The position numbers were made by a program, and so were the translations under genes. A stretch of DNA of 64,000 nt from the NCBI RefSeq assembly GCF_017876595.1, contig NZ_JAGIOG010000001.1, forward strand, positions 1,736,001 to 1,800,000, read 5' to 3'. This DNA comes from Aeromicrobium fastidiosum. Lineage in GTDB: Bacteria > Actinomycetota > Actinomycetes > Propionibacteriales > Nocardioidaceae. Shown here piece by piece: positions 18,556-46,697 of the stretch (the stretch's first letter is position 1; every line of letters begins with the position of its first letter). The notes beneath the pieces were generated by a model that saw only the letters and a program-made list of their open reading frames with translations, had not been told where the DNA came from and did no database searches.

Positions 18556-18915
18556 GTGACGGACTACACGCCGATCCTCGTGCTCGGAGGTCTGGCCGCG
18601 CTGTTCGCGATCGGCTCCGTGGCCATCGCCCCGCTGACCGGACCCAAGCGCTACAACCGCGCCAAGCTCGACCGCTACGAGTCGGGCATCGAGCCGAGCC
18701 CCCTGCCCGAGGGCGGCGGACGCATCCCGGTCAAGTACTTCTTCACGGCCATGATGTTCATCGTCTTCGACATCGAGATCGTGTTCCTGTACCCCTTCGC
18801 GGTGGCCTTCGACCAGATGTCCTGGTTCGCGGTCTTCGCGATGATGCTGTTCCTCGTCAACGTCACGATCGCCTACGCCTACGAGTGGCGCCGCGGCGGA
18901 ATGGAGTGGACCTGA
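18556..18915 (+). CDS. nuoA: NADH-quinone oxidoreductase subunit A
   Basis: A 119-residue membrane subunit of complex I with three helices. Diagnostic segments are [13 protein letters not shown] in the first loop and [26 protein letters not shown] spanning the second helix, whose acidic pair belongs to the quinone-to-membrane coupling path. Start GTG 18556 has GGGAGG 5 nt upstream; an upstream in-frame ATG at 18487 overlaps the CRP-type site and is unlikely. The stop overlaps the nuoB ATG by 1 nt. First gene of the complete operon. Confidence 0.94.
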
Positions 18916-19469
18916 TGGGTCTTGAGGAAAAACTGCCCAGCGGTGTCCTGCTGTCCACGGTCGAGGGACTGGCCGGCTACATGCGCAAGGCCTCGTTCTG
19001 GCCCGCGACGTTCGGGCTGGCCTGCTGCGCGATCGAGATGATGACGTTCGGCGCTCCGCGCTTCGACTCCGCGCGCTTCGGCATGGAGGTCTTCCGCCCG
19101 TCGCCGCGCCAGGCCGACCTGATGATCGTCGCGGGCCGCGTCAGCAACAAGATGGCCCCCGTCGTGCGCCAGATCTACGACCAGATGGCCGGACCCAAGT
19201 ACGTCCTCGCGATGGGTGTCTGCGCCAGCTCGGGCGGCATGTTCAACAACTACGCGATCGTGCAGGGCGTCGACCACGTCGTCCCCGTCGACATGTACCT
19301 GCCGGGCTGCCCGCCGCGGCCCGAGATGCTGATCGACGCGATCCTCAAGCTGCACGACCAGATCCAGCACACCAAGCTCGGCTCGAACCGTCTGGCCGAG
19401 ATCAAGGAGGACGAGCGGACGGCGCTGCTGGCCACTCCGACCTCGGCCATGAAGGGGCTCATGCGATGA
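18915..19469 (+). CDS. nuoB: NADH-quinone oxidoreductase subunit B
   Basis: 184 residues. Carries the N2 [4Fe-4S] cluster that hands electrons to the quinone; all four ligands are visible: the tandem Cys in [19 protein letters not shown] and [10 protein letters not shown]. The quinone-channel sequence [16 protein letters not shown] is intact. It starts inside the nuoA stop codon. The C-terminal tail ([21 protein letters not shown]) is usual for actinobacterial NuoB. Confidence 0.96.
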
Positions 19470-19482
19470 CGGGTGAGCAGCC

Positions 19483-20232
19483 ATGACCGATCCCAAGGGC
19501 GATCGCGACGCGCGCGACGCAGGCACCGAGACGCAGGACGTCTCGCACGAGTCGCACGACAACCTCGTGCGAGCCGACGTCACCCAGCTCGAGGTCGTCG
19601 AGATCCGCGAGGGGGCCTTCGGTGCTCACGGCACGGGCGACACCAGCGGCTTCGGCGGACTGACCCGCCCCGTCGTCATGCCCGGACCGAGCCAGCGTCC
19701 CTTCGGCGGCTGGTTCGACGAGGTCGCCGACCGGTTCGCGGGCGGCCCGGGGCTGGACGGCGCGATCGAGAAGATCGTCGTCGACCGCGGCGAGATCACC
19801 TTCTACGTCCGCCGGCAGCTGCTGCTGGAGGCCGTGACCCACCTGCGCAACGATCCCGTGCTGCGCTTCGAGTTCTGCTCCAGCGTGAGCGGTGTCGACT
19901 TCCCTCACGAGACCGGCCGCGAGCTGCACGTCGTCTACCACCTGCTGTCGATGACCCACAACCGTCGCATCCGCGTCGAGACCACGACGCCCGACGACGA
20001 CCGGCACGTGCCCAGCGTCGTCCCGATCTACCCGACGGCCGACTGGCAGGAACGGGAGGCGTGGGACATGTTCGGCATCATCTTCGACGGTCACCCCGCG
20101 CTCACGCGCATCCTCATGCCGGACGACTGGCCCGGCCACCCCCAGAGGAAGGATTACCCCTTGGGTGGCATCCCGGTCGAGTACAAGGGCGGCACGATCC
20201 CGCCCCCGGACCAGCGCAGGAGCTACTCATGA
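19483..20232 (+). CDS. nuoC: NADH-quinone oxidoreductase subunit C
   Basis: 249 residues, a separate NuoC (not fused to NuoD). The 30-kDa-subunit signature [31 protein letters not shown] is near the C-terminus. The N-terminal ~75 residues form the acidic, low-complexity extension ([28 protein letters not shown]) typical of actinobacterial NuoC. It packs against NuoB and NuoD in the Q-module. It ends overlapping nuoD by 4 nt (ATGA). Confidence 0.95.
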
Positions 20233-21572
20233 CTCAACAGAGCTCGACGATGGGCAGCGATCCCTACGCCGGCACCACCGACTCGTCCGAGGGGCCGGTC
20301 TTCACCGTCACTGGCCAGGACTGGGACACGATCGACGTCTCCGACCTGCAGGGCGACCGCCTCGTCATCAACATGGGTCCGCAGCACCCGTCGACGCACG
20401 GCGTGCTGCGGCTCGTGCTCGAGATCGACGGCGAGACCGTTCGCGACGCGCGCGCCGGCATCGGCTACCTGCACACCGGCATCGAGAAGAACATGGAGTT
20501 CCGCACCTGGACGCAGGGCGTGACGTTCTGCACCCGGATGGACTACGTTGCCCCGTTCTCCAACGAGGCCGCCTACGTCATGGCGGTCGAGAAGCTGCTC
20601 GGCATCGAGGCACCCGAGAAGGCGCAGGCCATGCGGGTGCTGCTGCTCGAGCTGAACCGCATCTCGTCGCACCTCGTGTGCCTGGCCACGGGCGGCATGG
20701 AGATCGGTGCCCTCACCGTCATGACCTGCGGCTTCCGCGACCGTGAGCTGATCCTCGACCTGTTCGAGATGATCACGGGCCTGCGTATGAACCACGCCTT
20801 CTTCCGTCCCGGCGGCGTCGCCCAGGACCTGCCCGAGGGCGCGATCGAGAAGATCCGTTCCACCGTCACGCTGCTCAAGAAGCGCCTGCCCGAGTACGCC
20901 GCGCTGTGCAACGCCAACCCGATCTTCAAGGGGCGGCTCAAGGGCGTCGGGCACCTCGAGCTCGCCGGCTGCCTCGCGCTGGGCCTGACCGGGCCCGTCC
21001 TGCGGTCGACCGGCTACGACTGGGACCTCCGCAAGAAGCAGCCCTACTGGGGCTACGACACGTACGACTTCGAGGTCGTCACCCGCGACGAGCCCGACGC
21101 CTACGGACGGTTCCGGGTGCGGCTCGACGAGATGTGGGAGTCCATCAAGATCGTCGAGCAGGCCACCGAGCGGCTCGCCGGCATGGAGGGCCAGCCCGTC
21201 ATGGTCGCCGACAAGAAGATCGCCTGGCCCGCGCAGCTGAGCGTCGGTGCCGACGGCCAGGGCAACTCCGCCGAGCACATCAAGCACATCATGGGCGAGT
21301 CGATGGAAGCGCTGATCCACCACTTCAAGATCGTCACCGAGGGCTTCAGGGTGCCGGCCGGCCAGGCCTACGGGGCCGTCGAGGCACCGCGTGGCGAGAT
21401 CGGCTGCCACCTGGTCTCCGACGGCGGCACGCGTCCGTACCGGGCGCACTTCCGCGATCCGTCGTTCGTCAACCTGCAGGGCACGTCGGTCATGAGCGAG
21501 GGCGGCATGATCTCCGACGTCATCGTCGCCGTGGCCAGCATCGACCCGGTCATGGGCGGTGTCGATCGGTGA
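20229..21572 (+). CDS. nuoD: NADH-quinone oxidoreductase subunit D
   Basis: 447 residues. The 49-kDa subunit that forms the quinone-binding pocket with NuoB. Seen: [22 protein letters not shown] with the quinone-contacting His, [36 protein letters not shown] and the C-terminal [52 protein letters not shown]. This is the only nuoD in the window, which matters because the second nuo cluster lacks one. It is separated from nuoE by 124 nt containing small hairpins. Confidence 0.97.
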
Positions 21573-21696
21573 GCCTTCAGTCGCTGCGCTCCCTCGGCTC
21601 GCCGATCGCCGGACGACTTCGTCGTCCCCGCGCTCCGCGCGGCCGCTACCCTCGCTTCGCTCGGGCCGTGGTTGCGTCCGGATGGGATGGTTCTCG
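21573..21696 (+). repeat. nuoD-nuoE spacer with TTC-loop hairpins and a CTCGCTGCGCTC-type repeat
   Basis: This 124-nt gap has no gene. It begins with TCGCTGCGCTCCCTCGG (21587-21603), a variant of the repeat at 12095-12116, followed by GGACGAC-TTC-GTCGTCC (21611-21627), CGCG-CTC-CGCG and CCCTCGCTTCGCTCGGG. The stems could slow decay or attenuate transcription between nuoD and nuoE (inference). Confidence 0.45.
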
Positions 21697-22479
21697 ATGA
21701 CGCTTTCTGACACCACCAAGGCCGAGCTCGTCGAGCTGGGGTCTCGGTATCCGGAGGCTCGTTCGGCTCTGTTGCCGATGCTGCACCTGGTGCAGTCGGT
21801 CGAGGGCAACGTCACGAACGAGGGCATCGAGGTGTGTGCCGACATCCTCGGCATCACGGCGGCCGAGGTGTCGGGCGTCGCGACGTTCTACACGATGTAC
21901 AAGCGTCGGCCGATGGGTCGCCACCACGTCGGCGTGTGCACCAACACGCTGTGCGCCGTCATGGGCGGCGACCTGATCTTCGAGCGGCTCAAGGGTCACC
22001 TCGACGTCGGCAACGACGAGACGACCGACGACGGTGCCGTGACCCTCGAGCACATCGAGTGCAACGCGGCCTGCGACTTCGCGCCCGTCATGACGGTCAA
22101 CTGGGAGTTCTTCGACAACCAGACGCCTGAGTCGGCGATCGAGGTCGTCGACCGGCTGCGCGCCGGAGAGACGGTGCAGGCCACCCGCGGCGCGACGATC
22201 ACGAGCTGGCGCGAGGCCGAGCGGGTCATCGCGGGCTTCGAGGACGGACTGGTCGACGAAGGCCCCACCGCGGCCGGAGCGTCGCTCGCCGGCTTCGAGA
22301 TCGCCCAGGAACGTGGCTGGGCGGCTCCCGCGTTCGGGGCTTCGACGGCCGCGGACGGCGAGGGCGCCGCCGACACCAAGCTCGAGGCCGAGCAGCAGGC
22401 CGACACCACGCGCGCCGGCACCGAGACGCTGATCGAGGAGTCTCCGGCGGACACGGCAGAAGAGGGAAACGATGACTGA
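21697..22479 (+). CDS. nuoE: NADH-quinone oxidoreductase subunit E
   Basis: 260 residues. Holds the N1a [2Fe-2S] cluster: the ligands are GVCTNTLC (Cys-x4-Cys) and IECNAAC (Cys-x3-Cys). The N-terminal helical domain ends in the family motif EVSGVATFYTMYKRRP. After the thioredoxin fold (about residue 170) there is an unusually long acidic, Ala-rich tail (DGEGAADTKLEAEQQADTT...EEGNDD) of ~80 residues. ATG 21697 is chosen; in-frame ATG 21682 would add MGWFS. Its stop overlaps a vestigial ATG whose context duplicates the real nuoF start. Confidence 0.94.
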   Translation: MTLSDTTKAELVELGSRYPEARSALLPMLHLVQSVEGNVTNEGIEVCADILGITAAEVSGVATFYTMYKRRPMGRHHVGVCTNTLCAVMGGDLIFERLKGHLDVGNDETTDDGAVTLEHIECNAACDFAPVMTVNWEFFDNQTPESAIEVVDRLRAGETVQATRGATITSWREAERVIAGFEDGLVDEGPTAAGASLAGFEIAQERGWAAPAFGASTAADGEGAADTKLEAEQQADTTRAGTETLIEESPADTAEEGNDD

Positions 22480-22485
22480 CCTGCT
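22468..22485 (+). repeat. Left copy of the flanking duplication (nuoE stop / vestigial nuoF start)
   Basis: AACGATGACTGACCTGCT recurs at 22640-22657 with one mismatch. Both copies hold the nuoE-type ending Asn-Asp-Asp-stop overlapped by an ATG that starts Met-Thr-Asp-Leu-Leu. The 132-nt element lies between them. Confidence 0.65.
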
Positions 22486-22497
22486 CGTCCCGACGGT

Positions 22498-22629
22498 CCA
22501 CCGATCTTTCGGCCTTTCAGCAGCTCCGACGGCCGAAACGCAGAAAGCTCCGTCCCTGGCGGCGTCGCAGGGGACCGATGTCTCTGCCTTTGCGTCGCCA
22601 GGGCAGCCGCAACGCAGAAAGATCGGTCC
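22498..22629 (+). repeat. 132-nt double-hairpin repeat element, copy A
   Basis: Four copies of a 19-nt motif (consensus GGACCGATCTTTCTGCGTT) lie at 22498-22516 (+), 22537-22555 (-), 22572-22590 (+) and 22611-22629 (-). They can fold as two tandem stem-loops with 20-nt loops and a 16-nt spacer. Start-to-start spacings are 39, 35 and 39 nt, exactly as in copy B at 45972-46103. It fills the nuoE-nuoF gap and contains no start codon that I would call a gene. Confidence 0.8.
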
Positions 22630-22639
22630 ACACGGAGGC

Positions 22640-22657
22640 AACGATGACTGATCTGCT
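22640..22657 (+). repeat. Right copy of the flanking duplication (functional nuoF start)
   Basis: AACGATGACTGATCTGCT; contains the nuoF ATG at 22644. It matches 17 of 18 positions of the left copy at 22468-22485. Confidence 0.65.
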
Positions 22658-23987
22658 GACCCCCGTCCTCACCGCCGACTGGGGCACCGACCGTGCCTGG
22701 ACGCTGGCCGAGTACCGCAAGACGGGTGGCTACGAGGCGCTCGAGAAGGCCCTGAAGATGGCTCCCGCCGAGGTCGTCGAGCTGGTCAAGGAGTCGGGCC
22801 TGCGCGGCCGCGGCGGTGCAGGCTTCCCGACCGGGATGAAGTGGGGCTTCATCCCCCAGGACAACCCGAAACCGAAGTACCTGGTCGTCAACGCCGACGA
22901 GTCCGAGCCCGGCACGTGCAAGGACATCCCCTTCATGATGGCGACGCCGCACACCCTCATCGAGGGCGTCATCATCGCGGCGCACGCGATCGGTGCCCAG
23001 CAGGCGTTCATCTACGTCCGCGGCGAGGTGCTGCACGTCATCCGTCGCCTGCGCGCCGCGTGCCGCGAGGCGTACGAGGCCGGCTACCTCGGTGACGGCC
23101 TGAACGGCAAGGGCATCCTCGACAGCGGCATCAGCATCGATCTCGTGATCCACGCCGGGGCCGGTGCCTACATCTGCGGCGAGGAGACGGCGCTGCTCGA
23201 CTCGCTCGAGGGACGTCGCGGCCAACCGCGCCTGCGTCCGCCGTTCCCGGCCGTCGAGGGTCTCTACGCCAGCCCGACCGTCATCAACAACGTCGAGTCG
23301 ATCGCCTCGGTGCCCTCGATCGTCCGCGGCGGCCACGAGTGGTTCGCCTCGATGGGCACCGAGAAGTCCAAGGGCTACGTCATCTACTCGCTGTCGGGGC
23401 ACGTCAAGAAGCCCGGGCAGTACGAGGCCCCGCTGGGCATCACCCTGCGCCAGCTGATCGACCTCGGCGGCGGCATGCGCGAGGGAGCTGCGCTCAAGTT
23501 CTGGACGCCCGGCGGGTCGTCCACTCCGCTGCTGACCGCGGAGCACCTCGACATGCCGCTCGACTACGAGTCGGTCGGCGCGGCCGGCTCGATGCTCGGC
23601 ACCCGTGCGCTGCAGATCTTCGACCAGACGACCTCGGTCGTGCGGGCCGTGCTGCGCTGGACCGAGTTCTACAAGCACGAGTCGTGCGGCAAGTGCACCC
23701 CGTGCCGTGAGGGGACGTGGTGGCTCGTGCAGACCCTGCAGCGCCTCGACGCCGGCGAGGGCAAGGAGGGCGACATCGAGCTGCTCGTCGACCTCTGCGA
23801 GAACATCCTCGGACGCTCGTTCTGCGCCCTGGGCGACGGTGCCACGAGCCCCATCACGTCGGCGATCCAGCACTTCCGCGAGGAGTTCGAGGCCGGCATG
23901 CACACGCCGTCGAGCGAGCTCTTCCCGCCCGCGGCGTCGATGCTGTTCACCGACCGCTCCTTGAGCCTGTCGAAAGGACGTGCGTGA
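22644..23987 (+). CDS. nuoF: NADH-quinone oxidoreductase subunit F
   Basis: 447 residues. NADH-binding subunit with FMN and the N3 cluster. Seen: the FMN/NADH glycine loop [61 protein letters not shown] and the [4Fe-4S] ligands in [15 protein letters not shown] with the fourth Cys in [10 protein letters not shown]. The last ten residues (SLSLSKGRA) are encoded by a short repeat shared, inverted, with nuoI2. That repeat supplies AAAGGA, the only Shine-Dalgarno candidate for nuoG. The nuoF start has GGAGG 8 nt upstream. Confidence 0.96.
23955..23980 (-). repeat. 26-bp TTTCGACAGGCTCA-type repeat at the nuoF 3' end
   Basis: Identical over 26 bp, in inverted orientation, to 46660-46685 in nuoI2. 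It encodes the last NuoF residues and carries AAAGGA (23973-23978), spaced 8 nt from the nuoG ATG. Confidence 0.75.
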
Positions 23988-26407
23988 TGACCGTGCAGGA
24001 CGTTTCGACCAGGTCAACGGGCGACGTGCCCGTCGAGCTCGTCACGCTGACGATCGACGACGTCGAGGTCAGCGTGCCGAAGGGCACCCTGGTCATCCGC
24101 GCCGCCGAGCTCGTCGGCACCGAGATCCCGCGATTCTGCGACCACCCGCTGCTCGACCCCGTCGGGGCGTGCCGCCAGTGCCTCGTCGAGATCACCGATG
24201 CCGGCAACGGTCGCGGCTTCCCGAAGCCGCAGGCCTCGTGCACGATCGAGGTCGCCGCGGGCATGGTCGTCAAGACCCAGGTCACGTCGCCCGTCGCCGA
24301 GAAGGCGCAACGCGGCAACATGGAGTTCCTGCTCATCAACCACCCGCTCGACTGCCCCGTGTGCGACAAGGGCGGCGAGTGCCCCCTGCAGAACCAGGCC
24401 ATGACGCACGGCCAGGGCGAGTCACGGTTCACCGAGACCAAGCGGACGTTCCCCAAGCCGATCAAGGTCTCCGAGCAGGTGCTGCTCGACCGCGAGCGCT
24501 GCGTGCTGTGCGCCCGGTGCACGCGTTTCTCCGAGCAGATCGCCGGCGACCCGTTCATCGCGCTGATCGAGCGCGGTGCCCACCAGCAGGTCGGCATCTA
24601 CGAGGAGGAGCCGTTCAGCTCGTACTTCTCGGGCAACACGATCCAGATCTGCCCCGTGGGCGCGCTGACCAGCGCCGACTACCGCTTCCGCTCCAGACCG
24701 TTCGACCTCGTGTCGGCACCGTCGATCGCCGAGCACGACGCGAGCGGCTCGGCCATCCGGGTCGACCACCGTCGCGGCAAGGTCATGCGCCGGCTCGCCG
24801 GTGACGACCCCGAGGTCAACGAGGAGTGGATCACCGACAAGGACCGGTTCGGCTTCGCATGGGCCACGCAGGGCGATCGTCTGACGACGCCGCTCGTGCG
24901 CAACTCCGCGACGGGTGAGCTCGAGGTCGCCTCGTGGCCCGCGGCCCTCGCGGTCGCCGGTCGCGGGCTCGCCGCCGCAGGTGGCAAGGTCGGCGTGCTC
25001 ACGGGCGGACGACTGACCGCCGAGGACGCCTTCGCGTACGCGAAGTTCGCCCGCACCGTGCTGCGCACCAACGACGTCGACTTCCGCGCCCGGGCGCACT
25101 CGGCCGAGGAAGCCGCCTTCTTGGCCTCGCACGTCGCCGCCACCTCGCTCGACGTGACCTTCACCGATCTCGAGAGCGCATCCGTGGTGGTGCTGGTGGG
25201 CTTCGAGCCCGAGGACGAGAACGGCAGCATCTTCCTGCGCCTGCGCAAGGGCGCGAAGACCCGCGGCGTCCGGGTCGTGGCGATCGCCAGCCACGCGACG
25301 CGCGGGCTCCGCAAGATGTCGGGCGAGCTGGTGCCCACCGTGCCGGGCGACGAGCCCGCCGCGCTGGCAGGTCTCGACCTGCCCGCCGGCGCGATCATCC
25401 TGGCGGGTGAACGCCTGGCAGCCGTGCCAGGTGGCTTCAGCGCGGCGCTCGCCGCGGCAGACGCCTCGGGTGCCCGTCTGGTGTGGGTTCCGCGACGCGC
25501 CGGAGACCGCGGAGCCGTCGAGGCCGGATGCCTGCCGACACTGCTGCCCGGCGGACGCCCGCTGGCCGATGCCGAGGCACGCGCCGACCTGGCCGCCGCC
25601 TGGGGAGTCAAGACGATCCCCGCCACCAAGGGTCGCGACACGTCCGCGATGCTCGCCGCCACATCGTCCGGGACGCTCAAGGCTCTGCTGGTCGGTGGCG
25701 TCGAGATCGACGACCTGCCCGATCCTGCGGCCGCCCGCGCGGGCCTCGAGGCCGCGGAGTTCGTCGTGAGCCTCGAGGTGCGGCACAGCGCCGTCACCGC
25801 CCTGGCCGACGTCGTGCTGCCGATCGCTCCGGCCGTCGAGAAGCCCGGCACGTTCGTCAACTGGGAGGGCCGCGTCCGCACGTTCGACGCCGTCCTGCAC
25901 CAGCCCGCCTCGCTGACCGACATCCGCGTGCTGGCCGGCATCGCCGAGGAGATGGGGCAGTCGCTGGGCTTCCGCACCGTCGCCGCGGCGCGCCGCGCTA
26001 TGGCCGAGCTCGGCCCCTGGGATGGTGCGCGGGCCGAGGCCCCCGCGGTCGCGGCGAAGGGCCTTTCGACAGGCTCACGGGGCAAGAAGGGGACGGTCGT
26101 GCTCGACTCCTGGCGACTGATGGTCGACGACGGACGCGGTCAGGACGGCCAGGCGCAGTACAAGGCCACGGCCCGCCCGGCGGTGCTCCGCGCGAGCGCG
26201 GCGACGCTGGGTGCGTTCGGCATCGACCCCGGCGGCCCGGCCTCGATCTCGACGACGGCGGGCAGCGCGACGTTCTTCACGGAGGTCGCCGACCTGCCCG
26301 ACGGAGTCGTGTGGGCACCGGCCAACTCCGGGGTGAGCCTGCGGGCCACGCTCGGGGCGGGCTTCGGCGACCGCGTCACGCTGACGGCGGGAGCCGACCA
26401 TGAGTGA
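23987..26407 (+). CDS. nuoG: NADH-quinone oxidoreductase subunit G
   Basis: 806 residues. The N-terminal Fe-S domain has the [2Fe-2S] ligands in [20 protein letters not shown], the His/Cys set [17 protein letters not shown], and [4Fe-4S] ligands [17 protein letters not shown] and [11 protein letters not shown]. The long C-terminal molybdopterin-type domain is catalytically empty, as in other complex I. Near residue 692 the linker KGLSTGSRG is encoded by the TTTCGACAGGCTCA repeat (26062-26077). Start ATG 23987 overlaps the nuoF stop; the end overlaps nuoH by 8 nt. Confidence 0.95.
26062..26077 (+). repeat. TTTCGACAGGCTCA repeat inside nuoG
   Basis: CCTTTCGACAGGCTCA is in frame and encodes part of the linker LSTGS between two nuoG C-terminal segments. 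It is a 16/16 match to the copy in nuoI2. Confidence 0.65.
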
Positions 26408-27647
26408 TCTGTTCGGGAACGAGCCGTTCTGGGTCGTCGCGCTCAAGGCGCTGCTGATCTTCGTCTTCCTGCTGCTCTATACGCTGTTCAACATCTGGTT
26501 CGAGCGGCGCGTCGTGGCCAAGATGCAGCACCGCATCGGCCCCAACGTCAACGGTCCGTTCGGCCTGCTGCAGAGCCTCGCCGACGGCGTCAAGCTGGCG
26601 CTCAAGGAGGACATCGTCGTCAAGGCGGCCGACAAGGCCGTCTACATCCTCGCGCCGATCCTGGCCGTCATCCCGTCGTTCCTGGCGTGGGCGGTCATCC
26701 CATTCGGCCCCGAGGTGCGCATCCCGTTCACCGACACCGTCACCCCGTTGCAGCTGACCGACCTGCCGGTCGCGGTGCTCTACGTCCTGGCCGTCACGTC
26801 GATCGGCGTCTACGGCATCGTGCTGGCGGGCTGGGCGTCCGGCTCGATCTACGCGCTGCTCGGCGGCCTGCGCTCCAGCGCCCAGGTCATCTCCTACGAG
26901 GTGGCGATGGGCCTGTCGTTCGTGTCGGTGTTCATGTACGCCGGCTCGATGTCGACGTCCGAGATCGTCGCCGCGCAGAGCGACATGTGGTACTTCATCC
27001 CGCTGTTCCCCTCGTTCGTCATCTACTGCATCGCGATGGTCGGCGAGACCAACCGTGCGCCGTTCGACCTCCCCGAGGCCGAGGGCGAGCTGGTCGGCGG
27101 GTTCCACACCGAGTACTCGTCGCTCAAGTTCGCGCTGTTCTTCCTGGCCGAGTACATCAACATGGTGACGGTGTCGGCGCTCGCGACGACCCTGTTCCTG
27201 GGCGGCTGGCGCGCCCCGTTCGGCATCGGGCAGATCAACGACGGCTACTTCAACACCGGCTACTGGCCCGTGCTGTGGTTCTTCGGCAAGACGCTCGCGT
27301 TCATCTTCATGTTCGTCTGGCTGCGCGGCACGCTGCCCCGCATGCGGTACGACCAGTTCATGACCTTCGGCTGGAAGATCCTGATCCCGATCTCCCTGGT
27401 CTGGATCGTCGCGGTCGCGTTCATCCGCAAGGCCAAGAGCGAGGACATGCTCGACCAAGGCGTCATCGTGCCCGTCGCGATCGTGTTCGGGGTGCTCGCC
27501 CTGCTGACCTTCCTCATCCCCGAGAAGAAGCAGGAGCCCGAGCCGGACGAGGTCGAGTTCGACGCCTTCGCCGGCGGCTACCCCGTCCCTCCGATGCCCG
27601 GCCAGCGCGCCGAGCACACCACCGACACCAGCGAGGTGAACTCATGA
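26400..27647 (+). CDS. nuoH: NADH-quinone oxidoreductase subunit H
   Basis: A 415-residue membrane subunit linking the Q-module to the proton pumps. Seen: [16 protein letters not shown] on the first loop, LKLALKED (quinone-site loop), the [25 protein letters not shown] acidic loop that surrounds the quinone channel, and eight to nine helices. The ~80-residue C-terminal tail ([17 protein letters not shown]...) is long and acidic, usual in actinobacteria. Overlaps nuoG by 8 nt and nuoI by 4 nt. Confidence 0.96.
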
Positions 27648-28243
27648 CGAACCCGGTCAAGGAGACGCTCTGGGACCCCATCGCCGGCTTCGGCGTGACG
27701 TTCCGGACGATGTTCCGCAAGCCCGTCACCGAGCAGTACCCGTTCACCAAGGTGCCGACCGCGCCGCGCTTCCACGGCCGCCACCAGCTCAACCGCTGGC
27801 CCGACGGCCTCGAGAAGTGCATCGGCTGCGAGCTGTGCGCGTGGGCCTGCCCGGCCGATGCGATCTACGTCGAGGGCGCGTCCAACATCGACGACGCCGA
27901 CGGCTCCGGGCGCTTCAGCCCGGGGGAGCGGTACGGCCGCGTCTACCAGATCAACTACCTGCGCTGCATCCTGTGCGGGCTGTGCATCGAGGCGTGCCCG
28001 ACGCGTGCGCTGACCATGACCAACGAGTACGAGCTGGCCAACGACAACCGCGCCGACCTCATCTGGGAGAAGGGCGACCTGCTCGCCCCGCTGCTGCCGG
28101 GCATGGTCGAGCCGCCGCACGAGATGATGATCAGCGACGACCACCACGACTACTACCGCGGCAAGCAGCTGCCCATCGTCGCGGTGTCGGCGGGTTCGCC
28201 AGCCTCAACGGGCGAGACGACGGGCGTGGGGGGCGAGGAGTGA
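27644..28243 (+). CDS. nuoI: NADH-quinone oxidoreductase subunit I
   Basis: 199 residues. Ferredoxin-like subunit with clusters N6a/N6b: [12 protein letters not shown] (about 61-72) and [12 protein letters not shown] (about 107-118). The C-terminal ~45 residues are an actinobacterial extension; the part [13 protein letters not shown] is encoded by a degenerate relative of the TTTCGACAGGCTCA repeat (around 28194-28215, 17/22 matches). It overlaps nuoH and nuoJ. Confidence 0.96.
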
Positions 28244-29019
28244 CGACCTTCTGGATCCTCGCGCCGATCATGGTGATCGCCGCGCTGGGACTCATCTTCG
28301 CCCGCAAGGCCGTGCACGCGGCGCTCGCGCTGGCCGTCGTCATGATCAGCCTCGCCGTCCTCTACGCCGCGCAGGGCGCACCCTTCCTGTTCGCGGTGCA
28401 GATCATCGTCTACACCGGCGCGATCATGATGCTGTTCCTGTTCGTCCTGATGCTCGTGGGCGTCGACACCTCGGAGTCGCTGCGCGAGACGATCGGCGGC
28501 CAGCGGCTCGCCGCGACCGCGGTCGGCCTGTCGTTCGGCATCGTCATGGTGACGGTCGTGGGCCAGGGCGTGTCATCCTCGGTCGTGGGGCTCAAGGACG
28601 CCAATGCCGGCGGCAACGTCGAGGGCCTCGCCGCCTTGATGTTCGGGCCCTACATCCTCGCGGTGCAGTTCACCGCGGCGCTGCTCATCACGGCGGTGCT
28701 CGGGGCCATGGTCATGGCGCACCACGAGAGCCTCGTGCCGAGGCGGACGCAGGCCGATCTGGCCCGTCAGCGCATGCGCGACTATGCCGAGTCGGGCGTC
28801 CACCCCGGCAACGCGCCCACCCCCGGCGTCTTCGCGCGGCACAACGCCGTCGACACCCCGGCCCTGCTGCCCGATGGCAGCCCGCTGGAGGCGTCGATTT
28901 CCGACAGCATCATCGGACGCGGGCAGGTGCGCGACGGCTACGACGAGGCGGTCGAGGAGATGACGCAGCAGCTCGAGGCGTCCGACGGCGAGCGCGACGA
29001 GGACGGTGACGGCAAGTGA
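28240..29019 (+). CDS. nuoJ: NADH-quinone oxidoreductase subunit J
   Basis: 259 residues. Five-helix membrane subunit; the third helix carries [21 protein letters not shown], the conserved pi-bulge region. A ~90-residue hydrophilic C-terminal tail ([19 protein letters not shown] ... [21 protein letters not shown]) exceeds the E. coli subunit (184) but is usual in high-GC Gram-positives. GTG 28240 overlaps the nuoI stop. Confidence 0.94.
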
Positions 29020-29309
29020 ACGAGTACATCACCCTGTCGATGATCCTGTTCACGATCGGAGCCGTCGGCGTCCTCGTGCGGCGCAACGCGATCATCGTGT
29101 TCATGTGCGTCGAGCTGATGCTCAACGCCACCAACCTGGCGTTCGTGAGCTTCTCGCGCCAGCACGGCAACCTCGACGGCCAGCTCGCCGCCTTCTTCGT
29201 GATGGTCGTGGCCGCCGCCGAGGTCGTCATCGGCCTGTCCATCATCATCTCCATCTACCGCGCGCGACGGACGACCTCGGTCGACGACGCGAGCCTGCTG
29301 AAGTCCTAG
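29016..29309 (+). CDS. nuoK: NADH-quinone oxidoreductase subunit K
   Basis: 97 residues, three helices. The proton-channel glutamates are present: [16 protein letters not shown] (second helix) and [19 protein letters not shown] (third helix). GTG 29016 overlaps the nuoJ stop by 4 nt. Confidence 0.96.
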
Positions 29310-29322
29310 GAGCGCCGAGACC

Positions 29323-31215
29323 GTGTTCGATCTTCAGTGGCTGCTCATCGCCATTCCCCTCGCCTCCGGTGCCCTGCTGCTCATCTGGGGCAAGGAGTCC
29401 GACCGTTTCGGCCACCTCATCGGCACCGCGGCGTCCGCGGCCTCGTTCGTGCTCGGCGTGGTGCTGTTCGTCGCCCTGCTGGGTGACGCCGCCGACGACC
29501 GGTCGCACGCCACGTCGCTGTTCACCTGGATCGACGCCGGCACGTTCCACGTCGAGATGAGCTTCGTGTACGACCAGCTGTCGGCGCTGTTCGTCCTGCT
29601 CATCACGGGCGTCGGCACGCTGATCCACGTCTACTCGATCGGCTACATGGAGCACGACGAGCGGCGACGCCGGTTCTTCGCGTTCCTCAACCTGTTCATC
29701 GCCGCGATGCTGACGCTGGTGCTGGCCGGCGACTACCTCGTGCTGTTCCTCGGCTGGGAGGGCGTCGGCCTGGCCTCGTACCTGCTGATCGGCTTCTGGC
29801 AGCACAAGCCCAGCGCCGCTGCTGCCGCCAAGAAGGCCTTCGTCGTCAACCGGGTCGGCGACATCGGCATGGCCCTGGCGATCATGCTGATGTTCGCCCA
29901 GTTCGGCACCTCGGCGATCGCGGCGGTCAACGCCGCAGCGCCCGGTGCCACCGACGCCGTCACGACCTCACTGGGCCTGCTGCTCCTGCTCGGCGCGTGC
30001 GGCAAGTCGGCGCAGGTGCCCCTGCAGAGCTGGCTGCTCGACGCGATGGAGGGCCCCACCCCGGTGTCGGCCCTGATCCACGCGGCCACGATGGTCACCG
30101 CCGGCGTCTACCTCGTGGTGCGCAGCAACGCGATCTTCGACGCCTCCGAGGTGGCCCGCACCGCGGTCATGATCGTCGGTCTCGTGACGCTGCTCGCGGG
30201 TGCCTGGATCGGTTGCGCGAAGGACGACATCAAGAAGGCGCTGGCCGGCTCGACGATGAGCCAGATCGGCTACATGATGCTCGCCGCGGGACTCGGCCCC
30301 GCCGGCTACGCGTTCGCGATCTTCCACCTCATCACGCACGGCTTCTTCAAGGCCAACATGTTCCTCGGTGCCGGGTCGGTCATGCACGGCATGACTGGGC
30401 CCGACGGTGAGGGCGACGTCGACATGCGGCACTACGGCGGCTTGCGCACGATGATGCCGGTCACGTTCGCGACGTTCGCCCTCGGCTATCTAGCGATCAT
30501 CGGCTTCCCGGGGTTCTCCGGCTTCTGGTCCAAGGACAAGATCATCGAGACCGCGTTCGGCGAGAACCTCTGGGTGGGGCTGGGTGCCCTGCTGGGTGCC
30601 GGCGTCACGGCGTTCTACATGACGCGCCTCATGATGATGACGTTCTTCGGCGAGCAGCGCTGGAAGGACGACATCCATCCGCATGAGTCCCCGAGGGTCA
30701 TGACCTGGCCGCTCATCGCGCTCGGAGCGCTGTCGCTGCTGGGCGGCGTGCTGCTGATCGGCGACTGGATCGTCGAGTGGCTCGAGCCCGTCGTCGGCCA
30801 CGGCGAGCACCACGAGCTGACGATCCCGGCCATCGCGTTGACCGTCATCATCACGCTCGTCGCCGCCTCGGGCGTCGCGCTGGGCTACATCACGTACGGC
30901 ACGAGGCCCATCGCGGCCGAGACACCGGCCGACAGCTCGGTGTCGGTCCTCGCCCGCGTCGGCCGCCACGAGCTGTACGGCAACGAGATCAACGACGCCG
31001 TCGTCGTCCGTCCGACCCGTCACCTGACCCGCTTCCTGGTCTGGTTCGACGGCAAGGGCATCGACGGCTTCGTCACCGGCCTGGCCGACCGCCTCGGCGA
31101 CACCTCGCAGTTCCTGCGCAAGCCGCAGACCGGCTTCGTCCGTTCCTATGCCCTCACGATGTTCGCTGGCGTGGCCATCGTCGTCCTGTGCCTCCTGGCG
31201 GTGACCCTCGCATGA
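29323..31215 (+). CDS. nuoL: NADH-quinone oxidoreductase subunit L
   Basis: 630 residues. Antiporter-like distal pump. Key residues: Glu in [19 protein letters not shown], Lys in [31 protein letters not shown], the His-rich [23 protein letters not shown], and [15 protein letters not shown]. The C-terminal lateral helix region ([23 protein letters not shown]) and final helix are present. GTG 29323 has AGGAG about 10 nt upstream; ATGA overlap with nuoM. Confidence 0.96.
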
Positions 31216-32765
31216 TCCTCTCGATCCTCGCCGCGACCCCGATCGTGGGCGCCCTCGTGCTCGCGCTGATGCCGCGCGGCGCGACCCACAGCTCTCACCT
31301 GCAGGCCAAGGCCGTCGCCCTCGGCGTCTCGCTCGTCACGCTGGTGCTGTCGCTGGTCGTGCTGGCCCGCTACGAGCCCACCCGGGGCGGCTACCAGCTC
31401 ACCGAGGAGCACACCTGGATCCAGGCCTTCGGCGCCCACTACTCGATCGGCGTGAACGGCATCGCGATCACGCTGGTGCTGCTGACGACGATCCTGGTGC
31501 CGATCGTCGTCCTCGCCTCGTTCGACGACCGCCTGCCCGACCCGAAGGGCACCAACGCCTACTTCGCGTGGATGCTGGCCGTCGAGGGGCTCGCGCTCGG
31601 TGCCTTCATGGCCACGGACGCGTTCTTGTTCTACGTCCTGTTCGAGGCGACGCTGATCCCGCTGTACTTCCTGATCGGCAGCTTCGGCGGACCCGGTCGG
31701 TCGTACGCGGCGGTCAAGTTCCTGATCTACAACCTGGTCGGCGGCCTGCTGATGCTCGCCGCGATCGTCGGGCTGTACGTCGTCAGCTCACGCCAGGGCG
31801 ATGCGTCCTACCTGCTGAGCGATCTCAAGAACCTCGACATGGGCCAGAACACCGAGCGCCTCCTGTTCCTCGGCTTCATGGCCGCGTTCGCGATCAAGGC
31901 ACCGCTGTGGCCGCTGCACACGTGGCTGCCCGATGCCGCCAAGGAGGCGACGCCCGGCACGGCGGTGCTGATGGTCAGCGTCGTCGACAAGATCGGCACG
32001 TTCGGCATGATCACGTGGTGCCTCAACCTGTTCCCCGAGGCTGCCGACTGGGCGAGCCCCGTCATCATCACGCTCGCGGTCATCAGCATCGTCTACGGTG
32101 CCCTGCTCGCGATCGGGCAGGACGACATCCGCCGGCTCATCGCGTTCACCTCGGTGTCGCACTTCGGCTTCATCATCCTCGGCATCTTCGCGTTCACGTC
32201 GACGTCGATGGCCGGCTCGACGCTCTACATGTTCAACCACGGACTCTCGACCGCGGCGCTGTTCCTCGTCACCGGCATCATGGTGTCGCGGCGCGGATCG
32301 GCGAAGATCTCCGACTTCGGCGGCGTCCAGAAGATCGCGCCGATCCTGTCGGGCGTCCTGCTGCTCGCAGGCCTGTCGAGCCTCTCGCTGCCCGGCCTCG
32401 CGCCGTTCGTGTCGGAGTTCCTGGTGCTGGCCGGCACATTCACCGTGTCGATCCCGGCCGCGGCCGTCGCGACGCTCGGCATCGTCCTCGCGGCGCTCTA
32501 CATCCTGATCATGTACCAGCGCACCATGACCGGTCCGCTGGCTCCCGGGGCCGAGGGCGTCACCGACCTGCAGCCGCGCGAGATCGCAGCACTGACCCCG
32601 GCGATCATGCTGATCATCGGGCTCGGCTTCTTCCCGCAGCCCGTGCTGAACGCGATCAACCCGGCCGTCGACACCGTCGTCAGCCACCTCGGCAAGAGCG
32701 ATCCGGTGCCGAAGACGCCCACGCCGATCTCTGCGCAGACCACGGACGAAGGAGGCCACGAATGA
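31212..32765 (+). CDS. nuoM: NADH-quinone oxidoreductase subunit M
   Basis: 517 residues. Second antiporter-like pump. Glu in [17 protein letters not shown], Lys in [28 protein letters not shown], and [15 protein letters not shown] / [18 protein letters not shown] are canonical. The C-terminus has a polar ~30-residue tail. Overlaps nuoL and nuoN by 4 nt each. Confidence 0.96.
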
Positions 32766-34399
32766 GCACGCTCCTGTCGAGCACCTCGCTCGCGTCGGCC
32801 ACCGACCTGCCGCCGATCCCCGCCGCCGACATCGAGTACTCGCTGATCGCGCCCCTGCTGATCATCGCCGGAGCCGCGATCGTGGGCGTGCTCGTCGAGG
32901 CGTTCTGGCCGCGGGCCACCCGCTTCACCGCCCAGGCGGTGCTGGCCTGCCTCGCGATCGTCGCGGCGCTGGCCGACACGGTCTGGGTCTACACCGATCT
33001 CGACCGCGTCGAGGCGAGCCTGCAGGCGCGCGGCCAGGTGGCCGCCGAGGGCGCGCTGTCGGTCGACGGCCCGGGCGTCTTCACATGGGGCATCCTGCTG
33101 GTGTTCGGGCTGCTCAGCATGCTGCTGTTCGCCGAGCGACGTCTCGAGGGCGGGCTGAGCCAGTTCACCGGACGCGCTGCCGACGCACCCGGCTCGGCCG
33201 CCGAGGCCGACGCCGTCCGTCGTCGCCTCGAGCACAGCGAGGTGTTCCCGCTCGCGCTGTTCGCGCTGGTCGGCATGATGCTGTTCGCGACCGCCAACGA
33301 CCTGCTGACGATGTTCGTCGCGCTCGAGGTGCTGAGCCTGCCGCTCTACATCCTGTGCGGGCTCGCCCGACGTCGCCGGCTGCTGAGCCAGGAGGCGGCG
33401 CTCAAGTACTTCCTGCTCGGGGCGTTCTCGTCGGTGTTCTTCCTGTACGGCGTCGCGCTGGCCTACGGCTACTCCGGCAGCTTCGAGCTGTCGGCGATCG
33501 ACACCGCCGTCACCAACCGCACCGGCAGCGAGACGATGCTCCTCGCGGCGACCGCGCTGATGGCGGTGGGCCTGCTGTTCAAGATCGGTGCCGCGCCGTT
33601 CCACACCTGGACGCCCGACGTCTACCAGGGCGCGCCGACCCCCGTCACGGCATTCATGGCCGCCGGCACCAAGGCGGCGGCGTTCCTCGCCCTGCTGCGG
33701 GTCTTCTACGTCGCCTTCGGTGGTTCGCAGTGGGACTGGCGGCCGACGATCGTGGCGATCGCGATCATCACGATGTTCCTGGGCGCCGTCGTCTCGATCT
33801 CGCAGACCGACGTCAAGCGGATGCTCGCGTACTCGTCGATCGCCCACGCGGGCTTCCTGCTGGTCGGCTTCGTCGGCGTCTACGCGGGCGTCGCCGGGTC
33901 GGACCGCGTCACGTCCGTCTCGAGCGTCCTGTTCTACCTCGCGGTCTACGGCCTGTCGTCGATCGGCGCGTTCGCGGTCGTGACGCTCGTGCGCGACTCC
34001 GGCGGCGAGACGACCCACCTGTCGAAGTGGGCCGGACTCGGTCGGACGTCACCGCTGCTCGCCGGTGCGTTCGCGATTTTCATGCTGTCGTTCGCTGGCA
34101 TCCCGCTGACGGGCGGCTTCATCGGCAAGTGGGGCGTCTTCAGCGCCGCATACTCCGGCGGGTTCTGGTGGCTCGTGGTCGTCGGCGTGCTGGTCAGCGC
34201 CCTCGCGGCGTACTTCTACGTGCGGGTCATCGTGCTGATGTTCTTCACCGACCCGGTCGGCGACGGCCCGACGGTTGCCGTCCCCAGCCTGCTGACTACC
34301 GTGGTGATCGTCGTCGCTGTGGTGGGTACGGTCGGACTCGGTATCATTCCGGGACCGGTGCTGGATCTCGCACAGCATGCGGGCGCGTTCGTGCGCTGA
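32762..34399 (+). CDS. nuoN: NADH-quinone oxidoreductase subunit N
   Basis: 545 residues. Third antiporter-like pump. Glu in FVALEVLSLPLYILCGLARRR and Lys in LLFKIGAAPFHTWTPDVYQGAPTPVTAFMAAGTKAAAF are conserved, with YSSIAHAGFLLVGFV. A charged loop (RRLEGGLSQFTGRAADAPGSAAEADAVRRRLEHS) between early helices is an actinobacterial insertion. It ends the nuo set; the polyprenyl synthase starts 34 nt later. Confidence 0.95.
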   Translation: MSTLLSSTSLASATDLPPIPAADIEYSLIAPLLIIAGAAIVGVLVEAFWPRATRFTAQAVLACLAIVAALADTVWVYTDLDRVEASLQARGQVAAEGALSVDGPGVFTWGILLVFGLLSMLLFAERRLEGGLSQFTGRAADAPGSAAEADAVRRRLEHSEVFPLALFALVGMMLFATANDLLTMFVALEVLSLPLYILCGLARRRRLLSQEAALKYFLLGAFSSVFFLYGVALAYGYSGSFELSAIDTAVTNRTGSETMLLAATALMAVGLLFKIGAAPFHTWTPDVYQGAPTPVTAFMAAGTKAAAFLALLRVFYVAFGGSQWDWRPTIVAIAIITMFLGAVVSISQTDVKRMLAYSSIAHAGFLLVGFVGVYAGVAGSDRVTSVSSVLFYLAVYGLSSIGAFAVVTLVRDSGGETTHLSKWAGLGRTSPLLAGAFAIFMLSFAGIPLTGGFIGKWGVFSAAYSGGFWWLVVVGVLVSALAAYFYVRVIVLMFFTDPVGDGPTVAVPSLLTTVVIVVAVVGTVGLGIIPGPVLDLAQHAGAFVR

Positions 34400-41537: not shown

Positions 41538-41649
41538 GGGGACGTCATCACCGACGCTGCGACCCAGGTACCGACGTGATGACGTCCGACCGTCCGACCG
41601 GGGACGTCATCATGGCGGTGGCCATCCAGGTACTGACGTGATGACGTCC
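41538..41649 (+). repeat. Two tandem 50-nt palindromic repeats
   Basis: Units 41538-41587 and 41600-41649 each begin GGGGACGTCATCA and end GTGATGACGTCC, forming 11-12-bp stems; they are joined by a 12-nt linker. The interiors differ (CCGACGCTGCGA versus TGGCGGTGGCCA) but share CCAGGTAC-GACG before the right arm. They lie between the methyltransferase stop and the MerR-type promoter of the SDR gene. Confidence 0.7.
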
Positions 41650-43508: not shown

Positions 43509-43874
43509 ATGGACGCCTACCTCGAGCAGTACGCGGCGGTCGGCGCGATCGTCGTGGCCGGCGTCCTGCTCGCGACCGCGATGCTGGGCGTCAACCGCCT
43601 CATGCGCCCACAGGTCGCGTCGCGCGACAAGCTCACGACGTACGAGTCGGGGGTCGACCCGGTCGGGCAGGGCTGGTCGCAGTCGACGGTCCGCTACTAC
43701 GTCTACGCCTTCCTCTACGTCATCTTCGCGGTCGACGCGGTGTTCCTGTTCCCGTGGGCGCTGGTGCTGGAGCAGATCGGCCACGCCGCCGCCGTCGAGA
43801 TGGGCGTCTTCGTCGGCGTCCTCGCGGTCGGTCTCGCCTACGCGTGGCGCAAGGGGGTGCTGTCGTGGACGTGA
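43509..43874 (+). CDS. nuoA2: NADH-quinone oxidoreductase subunit A, second copy
   Basis: 121 residues, three helices. Retains the loop [18 protein letters not shown] and the acidic second helix [26 protein letters not shown], where the Glu of NuoA1 (FDIE) is replaced by Ala-Val-Asp-Ala. First gene of a ten-gene set A,B,C,H,I,J,K,L,M,N. Overlaps nuoB2. Confidence 0.92.
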
Positions 43875-44434: not shown

Positions 44435-44997
44435 CCCTCGAGACCAATGCCTTCGGCCCGCCGCACCGGGTCGTCGAGCGTGCTGCCTGGCACGATGCCG
44501 TCGCGGCGCTCGAGGCCGATGGATTCGGCTACTTCGACTGGCTGTCGGCGGTCGACGAGCATCCGGAGGGGTTCCGGCTGGTGCTGCACGTGGCGAGGGT
44601 CCCTTCGACGGGCTCAGGGAGCGGGTCAGGCGGCGGGCTCGAGCACCTGCTGCTGGTGACCTACCTCGACCGCGAGTCGCCGAGCGTCCCCTCGATCGCC
44701 GACGTCTACGCGGGTGCGGCGTGGCACGAGCGCGAGACCCACGAGATGTTCGGCATCGCCTTCACGTCGTCCGCGTCGGGCGAGGCGGTCGACCTCGACC
44801 CGCTGCTGCTGCCCGACGGCTTCGAGGGCCACCCGCTGCGCAAGGAGTTCGTCCTGGCGTCGCGGGTCGCGAAGGCGTGGCCCGGCGCGAAGGAGCCGGG
44901 CGAGAGCGACGCCGACTCGGCGCACTCGCCGGGACGTCGACGGGTCAAGCCGCCCGGCGTCCCCGACGACTGGCTGCAGGACGGTCGCGATGGGTGA
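44431..44997 (+). CDS. nuoC2: NADH-quinone oxidoreductase subunit C, second copy
   Basis: 188 residues. The family core [14 protein letters not shown] and [17 protein letters not shown] is intact. It lacks the long N-terminal extension of NuoC1. An inserted flexible loop ([13 protein letters not shown], about residues 57-69) is encoded by a TTTCGACAGGCTCA-type repeat (44601-44624). Its 3' end overlaps nuoH2 by 8 nt, leaving no room for a nuoD remnant. Confidence 0.9.
44601..44624 (+). repeat. Diverged TTTCGACAGGCTCA repeat inside nuoC2
   Basis: CCCTTCGACGGGCTCAGGGA plus GCGG; it inserts a Ser/Gly-rich loop into NuoC2 that NuoC1 does not have at this place. Confidence 0.6.
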
Positions 44998-45958
44998 GGT
45001 CGTCGACGTCGTGCTGCGGTGCGTCGTCGTGCTGATGGCGTTCCTGACCCTGCCGCTGCTGGTGGGGCAGATGGAGCACAAGGCCATGGCGCACATGCAG
45101 AGCCGGGTCGGGCCCATGGCGGCCGGCGGGTTCCACGGCTGGGCGCAGCTCGTGGCCGATGGGGTCAAGTTCGTCCAGAAGGAGAGCATCACGCCGGTCG
45201 CCGCCGACCGCCGCGTTTTCGAGCTGGCACCGGCAGTGGCGCTCGTGCCCTATCTCGTGGCGATGCTCGCGGTCCCGCTCGGCCCCTTCTTCGGGCAGGG
45301 AGTCCTCATCGGGCAGGATCTTGACGTCGGGCTGTTCTTCGTGCTCGCGGCCATGAGCGTCGGCGTGCTGGGCACCCTGATGGGCGGCCTCGGCAGCGGC
45401 AACAAGTACTCCTACATCGGCGGCATGCGGGTCGCGGCGCAGCTCATGTCGTACGAGCTGCCCATGGTGCTGGCGGCGGCGAGCGTCGCGATGCTCGCCG
45501 GCACGCTGTCGCTGGTCGGCATCGCGGACGCCTTCGAGCCGTGGTGGCTGCTGCTGCAGCTGCCGGGTCTCGTGGTGTTCTTCGTCGCGGGTCTGGCCGA
45601 GCTGCAGCGCCCGCCGTTCGACGCGCCACTGGCCGATGCGGAGCTCGTGATGGGGCCGCTGACCGAGTACGGCGGGATGCGGTTCGCGATGTTCCTGCTC
45701 GCGGAGTACGCCGGCATCGTCGTGCTGGCGGCGCTGACGACCGTCCTGTTCCTCGGCGGCTGGGCGGGGCCGTGGTCCGACCAGCTGGGCTGGGCATGGA
45801 CGCTGCTCAAGATCGTGGCGGTGTCGTTCCTGGTCATCTGGGCGCGGGTCGCCTACCCGCGGCTGCGCGAGGACCAGGTCAACGTCCTGGCCTGGAAGGT
45901 GCTGGTGCCGCTGGCGCTGGCGCAGCTGACGCTCACGACCCTGGTGGTGGTCTGGTGA
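44990..45958 (+). CDS. nuoH2: NADH-quinone oxidoreductase subunit H, second copy
   Basis: 322 residues, about eight helices. Retains EHKAMAHMQSRVGPM, the quinone-loop equivalent VKFVQKESITP and the acidic loop LAELQRPPFDAPLADAELVMGPLTEYGGMRFAMFLLAEY. It lacks the long acidic C-terminal tail of NuoH1, so it is close to the minimal size of the family. ATG 44990 overlaps the nuoC2 stop. A 166-nt gap holding the 132-nt element separates it from nuoI2. Confidence 0.93.
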   Translation: MGEVVDVVLRCVVVLMAFLTLPLLVGQMEHKAMAHMQSRVGPMAAGGFHGWAQLVADGVKFVQKESITPVAADRRVFELAPAVALVPYLVAMLAVPLGPFFGQGVLIGQDLDVGLFFVLAAMSVGVLGTLMGGLGSGNKYSYIGGMRVAAQLMSYELPMVLAAASVAMLAGTLSLVGIADAFEPWWLLLQLPGLVVFFVAGLAELQRPPFDAPLADAELVMGPLTEYGGMRFAMFLLAEYAGIVVLAALTTVLFLGGWAGPWSDQLGWAWTLLKIVAVSFLVIWARVAYPRLREDQVNVLAWKVLVPLALAQLTLTTLVVVW

Positions 45959-45971
45959 CGATTCCCCAGAA

Positions 45972-46103
45972 CGACCGATCTTTCTGCGTTCGTGCTGCTC
46001 TGACGACGTCAACGCCGAGACATCGGTCCCTCCGCGCACGTCGGTGCACCGATGTCGCTGCGTTGATGCAGCCGGGACGACCGGAACGCCGAAAGATCGG
46101 TCA
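45972..46103 (+). repeat. 132-nt double-hairpin repeat element, copy B
   Basis: Motif copies at 45972-45990 (+), 46011-46029 (-), 46046-46064 (+) and 46085-46103 (-), with spacings 39, 35 and 39 nt identical to copy A at 22498-22629. The outer arms form a nearly perfect long-range inverted repeat (GACCGATCTTTCTGCGTTC against GACCGATCTTTCGGCGTTC). Loop 1 also keeps GCWGCTCYGACGRC in both copies. It lies between nuoH2 and nuoI2, and its flanks show no duplication. Confidence 0.8.
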
Positions 46104-46124: not shown

Positions 46125-46697
46125 ATGAGCTGGGGCAAGGGACTGTGGCAGGGGCTCGCGGTGACGTGGCGCAACCTGACCCGGCGCAGCATCACGGCGC
46201 ACTACCCCGACGTGCAGCCCGATCTGCCTCCGCGCAGCCGCGGCGTCATCGCTCTGCAGGAGGAGAACTGCACCTCGTGCATGCTGTGCGCCCGGGAGTG
46301 CCCCTCGTGGTGCATCACGATCGACTCCCACAAGGAGGTCATCCCCGCAGCCACGGAGGGCGGCCGTGACCGCAGCCAGAACGTGCTCGACCAGTTCGAC
46401 ATCGACTACTCGATCTGCATGTACTGCTCGATCTGCATCGAGGTGTGCCCCTTCGACGCCCTGCACTGGTCGCCGGAGTTCGCCTACGCCGAGGGCGACC
46501 TCAAGGACCTGACGCACGACATGAACCGGCTCCGCACCTGGATGGACACCGTGCCGCCACCGCAGGCCCTCGACCCGGGGGCCGAGCAGGGCAAGGAGCT
46601 GGACGCGTACGAGCGGACGCGGGCGACCGAGGCCGTACCGCCCGTTGTGCCTGTCGAGACGTCCTTTCGACAGGCTCAAGGAGCGGGGGACGAGTGA
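46125..46697 (+). CDS. nuoI2: NADH-quinone oxidoreductase subunit I, second copy
   Basis: 190 residues. Both [4Fe-4S] motifs are complete: [15 protein letters not shown] and [16 protein letters not shown]. The C-terminal extension ends in [11 protein letters not shown], encoded by the 26-bp repeat shared with nuoF; the repeat supplies AAGGAG for nuoJ2. The start ATG 46125 has GGCGGAGGGG upstream (46111-46120). Confidence 0.93.
46660..46685 (+). repeat. 26-bp TTTCGACAGGCTCA-type repeat at the nuoI2 3' end
   Basis: Identical over 26 bp to 23955-23980 but inverted. It is part of a larger inverted structure: GCCTGTCGA (46649-46657) and TCGACAGGC (46667-46675). AAGGAG (46678-46683) lies 10 nt before the nuoJ2 GTG. 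Confidence 0.75.

Follow-up and report, generated by a model that had tools for sequence, protein, structure and literature searches.

The 64,000-nucleotide stretch of Aeromicrobium fastidiosum DNA analysed here (the window) carries two complex I clusters, at 18556-34399 and 43509-52014. Genes were called with a custom codon-usage script and named from NCBIfam models. The first is a complete nuo cluster in which NuoD, E, F and G were confirmed by model. In the second, models were matched by NuoB and, below cut-off, by NuoC, H and I; D, E, F and G genes were not seen among the gene calls when these were inspected by eye. A close NuoI like that of the second cluster is present in 18 of the 49 genomes of the genus, the own genome included. 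Each cluster holds one element of 132 nt, as a sequence-only reading of this DNA had claimed. Copy 1 (22498..22629, given without strand, like all units below) lies at the junction between nuoE (21682..22479, + strand) and nuoF (22644..23987, +), both supported by the gene calls and the NCBIfam NuoE and NuoF models. Copy 2 (45972..46103) lies in the second cluster at the junction between nuoH (44990..45958, +) and nuoI (46125..46697, +), whose NCBIfam NuoH and NuoI matches are below the curated cut-off. The 39/35/39 geometry described in that reading was recovered as well, with motif starts at 22498/22537/22572/22611 in copy 1 and at 45972/46011/46046/46085 in copy 2. Its 19-nt motif is present, but solely in degenerate form, and the repeating unit is 54 nt long. 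Both copies are pairs of such units with a start spacing of 74, at 22500..22553 and 22574..22627 in copy 1 (locus L001; 20-nt linker at 22554..22573) and at 45974..46027 and 46048..46101 in copy 2 (locus L031). When copy 1 served as query, copy 2 was retrieved at E=5e-13 along with many further places in the genome, more than chance would give.

The unit is an inverted repeat with arms of 17 nt around a centre of 20 nt (17-20-17), and its consensus, written with degenerate letters that we set ourselves, reads ACCGATCTTTCKRCGTT-N20-AACGYMGAAAGATCGGT. In a broad set of 98 units, column 21 is always G and column 34 always C. Using a sequence-only model built from 48 units (R1) together with a symmetric scoring scan run on fetched loci, we found 20 sites with a total of 37 clear units in the 3.93 Mb genome of A. 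fastidiosum (G000), and a further 4 units that are weak or belong to another subfamily; the two nuo copies are thus far from being the only ones in the genome. Within the genus, R1 has matches at E<=0.01, weak ones among them, in 25 of the 49 genomes. The initial 132-nt query over 58 relatives had matched 6, the own genome included, all from one genus, and a pattern scan of genome contigs matched one contig. Units occur singly, in pairs or as a fourfold array; one such array, at G000:C1:3434035-3434307, has a 73-nt period and lies between convergent genes. A recount made without preset distances (n=78 units) gave neighbour distances below 900 nt of 64 (18), 63 (1), 74 (5) and 73 (4) and no others in the R1 family, three of the four 73-nt distances coming from that one array. 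Spacings of 62, 63 or 65 were also seen in other subfamilies (65 was read by hand in L075). The pair spacings of 63-64 and 73-74 bp differ by about one DNA turn.

The family lies mostly between genes. The own genome has 23 sites when three weak ones are counted in; 14 of these are in tandem, 7 in convergent and 2 in divergent contexts; 22 are entirely intergenic and one overlaps the end of the nuclease gene described below by 69 nt. Many own-genome sites begin 6-20 nt past a stop codon, and across all 55 sites 5 overlap or lie inside a called gene. The relative G061 has both the nuoE/nuoF and the nuoH/nuoI junction without the element. G061 has the stop/start sequence of nuoE/F once, and G000 has it on either side of the element; there a left copy (22465..22485, +; nuoE stop and start-like ATGACTGA) and a right copy (22637..22657, +; containing the present nuoF start) form a direct repeat of 21 nt at 90%. 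Direct repeats scoring >=11 flank 2 of 39 sites from three species, against 0.3% of shuffled flanks, and these two long duplications are unlike in length and distance. A regular fixed-length target-site duplication, as for a MITE of a DDE insertion sequence, was not found at the 39 sites, where duplications of at least about 8 nt can be detected and those shorter than about 8 nt are indistinguishable from chance. Some sites, compared by eye, are common to two or three species (L004/L033/L041; L009/L039/L045; L042/L059) and many copies are therefore old; as most long matches are moreover just 65-88% identical, activity is old or slow. The copy number, the spread over the genus, the intergenic placement and the two empty junctions in G061 together support the earlier suggestion of a structured, BIME/MITE-like palindrome that is non-autonomous and tolerates operons.

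The proposals made on the RNA side fared less well. A double hairpin had been read from the sequence, but RNAfold folds each copy as one long hairpin in which outer arm pairs with outer arm and inner with inner (MFE z -2.86 for copy 1 and -6.27 for copy 2). The divergence between copies had been taken as compensating. Over 48 units, however, pairing cells amount to 83.4% compared to 84.5% after shuffling, and the covariation score is 0.087, a value reached by 432 of 500 shuffles, compared to 0.096 after shuffling. Within the subfamily covariation is thus not above that of shuffles, but between subfamilies and species the arms do change together (pairs 8:47, 10:45 and 11:44, z 6-8 under a shuffle that ignores relatedness). 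A permutation of arm partners over 25 pairs and 24 singles, which unlike the spacing recount used preset pair distances, showed a small pairing excess over re-dealt partners (arms 1-17; z 3.2 for the outer arms and 1.2-2.5 for the others), and this weak excess may reflect relatedness. A period-3 pattern was not significant for information content; for arm pairing (p=0.002 for all units over arms 1-17, 0.07 in the other species, none over 1-24) it was dropped as post hoc. On the transcribed strand of 30 units in tandem contexts G.U pairs (61) are about as frequent as A.C pairs (58), and no difference in folding energy was seen between the sense and the antisense strand. No Rfam family matches the element, one tRNA being all that reaches a gathering threshold within the window. 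Our data therefore do not support a selected RNA structure, nor do they support an RNA signal that would act between complex I modules in regulation or processing, since 18 of the 20 sites lie outside the window's nuo clusters. This, together with the constant length of the unit and the one-turn step in spacing, leads us to infer that a protein recognises the palindrome as dyad DNA.

A candidate for this protein is found beside the repeats themselves. In G000, G011, G034, G023 and G065 a single gene is enclosed by sites that lie about 1 kb from each other; in A. fastidiosum this cognate gene (G000:C1:3815598-3816539, outside the window) lies between copies of the R1-type repeat, and a paralogue in the same genome lies between repeats with different arms. 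The product of about 310 aa has an AbiEi-like front part and a DUF559-like back part of the PD-(D/E)XK type; for a MITE, a full-length insertion sequence with the same ends and a DDE transposase would be expected. In five single members that were scanned Pfam matches were just marginal and NCBIfam gave nothing relevant. Over 38 members DUF559 (PF04480) was matched by 19 at E<=0.1 (best 1.1e-5), a weak but repeated signal. AbiEi_4 was matched by 17 of the 38 (best 2.9e-5) and PADLOC AbiEi models by 37 at E<=0.01 (best 7.9e-22), the match spanning residues 16-168 in the first member; judged from these models, the front part is likely to be DNA-binding. Invariant residues include E191, R208-Q209, L221-D222, E233 and G236 (E191, D222 and E233 in L162 numbering). 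The best PDB profile match is 3hrl, an 'Endonuclease-Like Protein', and is weak (E=0.053), with the D and E.DG..H in register; a single-sequence structure model reached a pLDDT of 36 and was unusable. DUF559-type nucleases share with the family the pattern E ... D ... E.(D/H)G as well as the weak profile matches to PF04480 and 3hrl, but here the nuclease-like part is fused to an AbiEi-like part and adjoins cognate palindromes. Vsr-like (EDxHD) homing endonucleases are linked to DUF559-type PD-(D/E)XK nucleases.

The gene is widespread and resident. At E<=1e-5 it was found in 29 of the 49 genomes of the genus and, at E<=1e-20, in at least 128 of 296 sampled genomes and at least 50 of 105 genera of the class, both counts being lower bounds because eight candidates were scored per genome. 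No relative was found on viral contigs or on plasmids. The gene is syntenic within clades and vertically kept, with 11 of 50 loci sharing an ndk neighbourhood; the palindromes listed for these ndk loci nonetheless differ between species. At one locus (L206, G031:C51) the nuclease gene is seemingly split into two reading frames and the palindrome is still present downstream.

Palindromes adjoin the gene family more often than they adjoin ordinary window genes. Fifty of the 56 genus matches were taken and palindromes above a fixed score counted in their flanks, which gave 32 loci with a palindrome upstream, 38 downstream, 28 on both sides and 42 on any side, some of those counted resembling terminators (e.g. 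L183); in the remaining 8 loci none was above threshold. The control consisted of 60 window genes with both elements masked, of which 11 had a palindrome upstream, 11 downstream, 6 on both sides and 16 (27%) on any (Fisher p=1e-9 for any and 3e-7 for both). A second control on 45 nuo loci (3 upstream, 2 downstream, 1 both, 4 any) is lenient because their flanks are mostly coding, and the window genes are the control to use. The same pattern holds in other genera of the class: among the 25 best-scoring loci, one of which was skipped as cut by a contig end, 22 of 24 had a palindrome on any side and 15 on both, compared to 2 and 2 in far-flank windows.

The arms of the palindromes track the lineage of the protein. 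Arm and protein distances are correlated (Mantel Spearman r=0.45, p=0.0002, 34 of 37 loci with arm pairing >=12) in a test whose units were picked automatically, some of them wrongly, and whose r includes the species phylogeny. A stricter first comparison of own and other flanks, in which some units were wrongly centred and weak flank units were dropped, had found the own flank closest or equal in 9 of 31 units. It is superseded by a comparison of 76 dispersed units, 59 of them from G000, G011 and G034, in which 68 lie within 3 of 17 positions of the flank of the gene in their own genome (median 1, against an average of 4.5 for other genomes); the misses include units of G004, G028, G030, G033 and G068.

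The pattern extends to other paralogues. A model of 9 units taken solely from flanks of the second-paralogue clade in five genomes (R2) is matched by 21 of 49 genus genomes at E<=0.001, in many places away from any gene copy, with 28 matches in G000, 106 in G011, 58 in G003 and 116 in G010, units usually being matched on both strands. Counted in this way, R1 and R2 matches range from 0 to 116 per genome within the genus. For 86 units among the R2 matches listed, distances below 200 are 64 (15), 74 (5), 73 (1) and 148 (1), so that the one-turn step recurs in a second family. The window itself contains a pair from yet another palindrome family, with unit 1 at 41540..41587 (GGACGTCATCAC...GTGATGACGTCC, 48 nt) and unit 2, which starts 62 nt further on, at 41602..41649. 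Its counterpart stands beside a third paralogue (G000:C1:306816), in a flank that has the same spacing of 62; the 12-nt ends and right-hand core of the window pair equal a unit beside that gene, with a single change in one arm of the right-hand unit.

Across the genus, R1 or R2 finds matches, some of them weak, in 27 of the 29 genomes that bear the gene, compared to 6 of the 20 that do not (p=5e-6). Neither model is matched in the gene-bearing genomes G018 and G022, and several others show just one to three weak matches. When the 20 genomes lacking a close gene were searched by profile, 11 proved to contain faint homologues, a few of which carry palindromes of their own (L246, L247 and L255). 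The complete genome of G019 has 35 R2 matches and a faint homologue alone, with no palindrome nearby. This suggests that the link between gene and repeat is not strict, and a possible alternative is gene loss that left orphan repeats.

These features call to mind the REP/BIME-RAYT systems and REPINs, which likewise consist of short dispersed extragenic palindromes, as singles and as inverted pairs able to form hairpins. RAYT genes are described as resident, vertically kept genes between two palindromes, and REP repeats as commoner in genomes with a RAYT gene (PMC2817692, PMC8049555). Here too a gene is flanked by its own palindromes, on both sides in 28 of 50 loci. The enzyme, however, is AbiEi-DUF559-like and not of the Y1/HUH type. 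PF01797, the Y1/HUH domain of RAYT-type transposases, had no match in the own genome or in any of the 49 genus genomes, in a search that was positive in 5 of 14 control genomes, and a RAYT or other Y1 enzyme was rejected on this absence. The units differ as well, measuring 54 bp (17-20-17, paired at 63-64 or 73-74) against 20-40 bp for REP, and no unpaired GTAG or CGTC head of the REP type was seen by eye at their ends. Because PF01797 is absent and the unit lacks the REP size and tag, we file the system as REP/RAYT-like and not as REP/RAYT. Comparable too are the CGTC-tagged REPs, described as dispersed, mostly inverted dimers that apparently lack a dedicated transposase, with stems of 8-9 bp, loops of 4-5 nt, a CGTC end motif and an occurrence mostly in alphaproteobacteria (PMC3733652). 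Both are dispersed and largely paired palindromes, but the present units are 54 bp long and found in Propionibacteriales. With the AbiE type IV toxin-antitoxin system, whose antitoxin AbiEi is reported to bind inverted repeats (PMC7319586), the family shares the front part that matches AbiEi models; it differs in the DUF559-like back part and the dispersed sites, and no AbiEii (DUF1814) toxin gene was recognised by eye among the neighbours at six loci. Among the matches listed in our literature search, no paper connects DUF559 or AbiEi genes to dispersed palindromes.

We therefore favour, as the probable explanation, that the nuo elements belong, as non-autonomous copies, to a family of extragenic palindromes that is dispersed over the genome and has a cognate AbiEi-DUF559-like nuclease, a system similar to REP/RAYT and built on an unrelated enzyme. 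The association of the palindromes with the gene is shown by the data, and we infer from it that the nuclease mobilises the repeats. In such a mechanism the AbiEi-like front part would bind the palindrome as dyad DNA and the nuclease part would nick or cut at or near it. Repair or copying could then set a new pair at a second site, occasionally accompanied by a flanking duplication such as may have arisen at nuoE/F, and copies would persist mainly directly behind stop codons.

The palindromes might instead be genome-wide DNA-binding sites for chromosome organisation, and the protein a domesticated architectural factor that is a mobility enzyme no longer. The length of 54 bp, kept nearly without indels, the spacing step of about one helical turn in two families and the synteny of the gene within clades, such as the ndk neighbourhood at 11 of 50 loci, would all suit architectural sites. 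We nevertheless consider this unlikely, as the number of matches per genus genome varies from 0 to 116, the nuoE/F element is absent in G061 with its flanking sequence doubled in G000, the acidic nuclease residues are invariant and other subfamilies have spacings of 62 or 63. It seems improbable that the protein is an AbiEi-like repressor with the flanking palindromes as its autoregulatory operators and the dispersed copies as its regulon. AbiEi is indeed described as binding inverted repeats in its own promoter (PMC7319586) and AbiEi models match 37 of 38 members, but palindromes are no less frequent downstream of the gene than upstream (38 against 32 of 50) and just 2 of 23 own-genome sites are in a divergent position.

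Less probable still is that the unit was selected as an RNA hairpin, that is, as a 3' UTR terminator, processing or stabiliser element. The strong folding of copy 2 (z -6.27), the frequent position directly behind stop codons and the slight surplus in arm pairing relative to re-dealt partners are what such an element could produce; against it stand a covariation not above that of shuffles in 48 units and the equality both of G.U with A.C on the transcribed strand and of sense with antisense energies, and at three sites (L009, L039 and L045, by eye) a separate terminator-like hairpin adjoins the repeat.

The cognate-nuclease explanation has a wider form, for which we see about an even chance: a second, independently evolved REP-type system, widespread across the class, in which vertically kept AbiEi-DUF559 nucleases spread lineage-specific palindromes whose arms co-evolve with them, with no tyrosine transposase involved. 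The agent that moves dispersed palindromes in the absence of a RAYT is an open question, as a 2013 survey states for CGTC REPs (PMC3733652). AbiEi-DUF559-like proteins, found in at least 128 of the 296 genomes sampled from the class, would be a candidate class of enzyme for such RAYT-less palindromes. If this were correct, REP-like systems would have arisen at least twice, from unrelated nucleases, and the co-evolution of repeat and enzyme could be studied across a large number of natural palindrome specificities, among them those of loci that share the ndk neighbourhood and differ in their palindromes. The system also offers putative nucleases with long dyad sites that could be assayed directly.

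In relatives G028 and G005, the flanks of L066 and L070 contain ATCGGTGGATCTGCAACCGCAG... and its reverse complement, a further large palindrome. A different short repeat was seen in the window, at 23961, 26065, 44604 and 46666. It resembles TTCGACAAGCTCAG with at most 2 mismatches and lies near or inside the ends of genes, where it is read as peptides such as SLSKGRA and FRQAQGAG.
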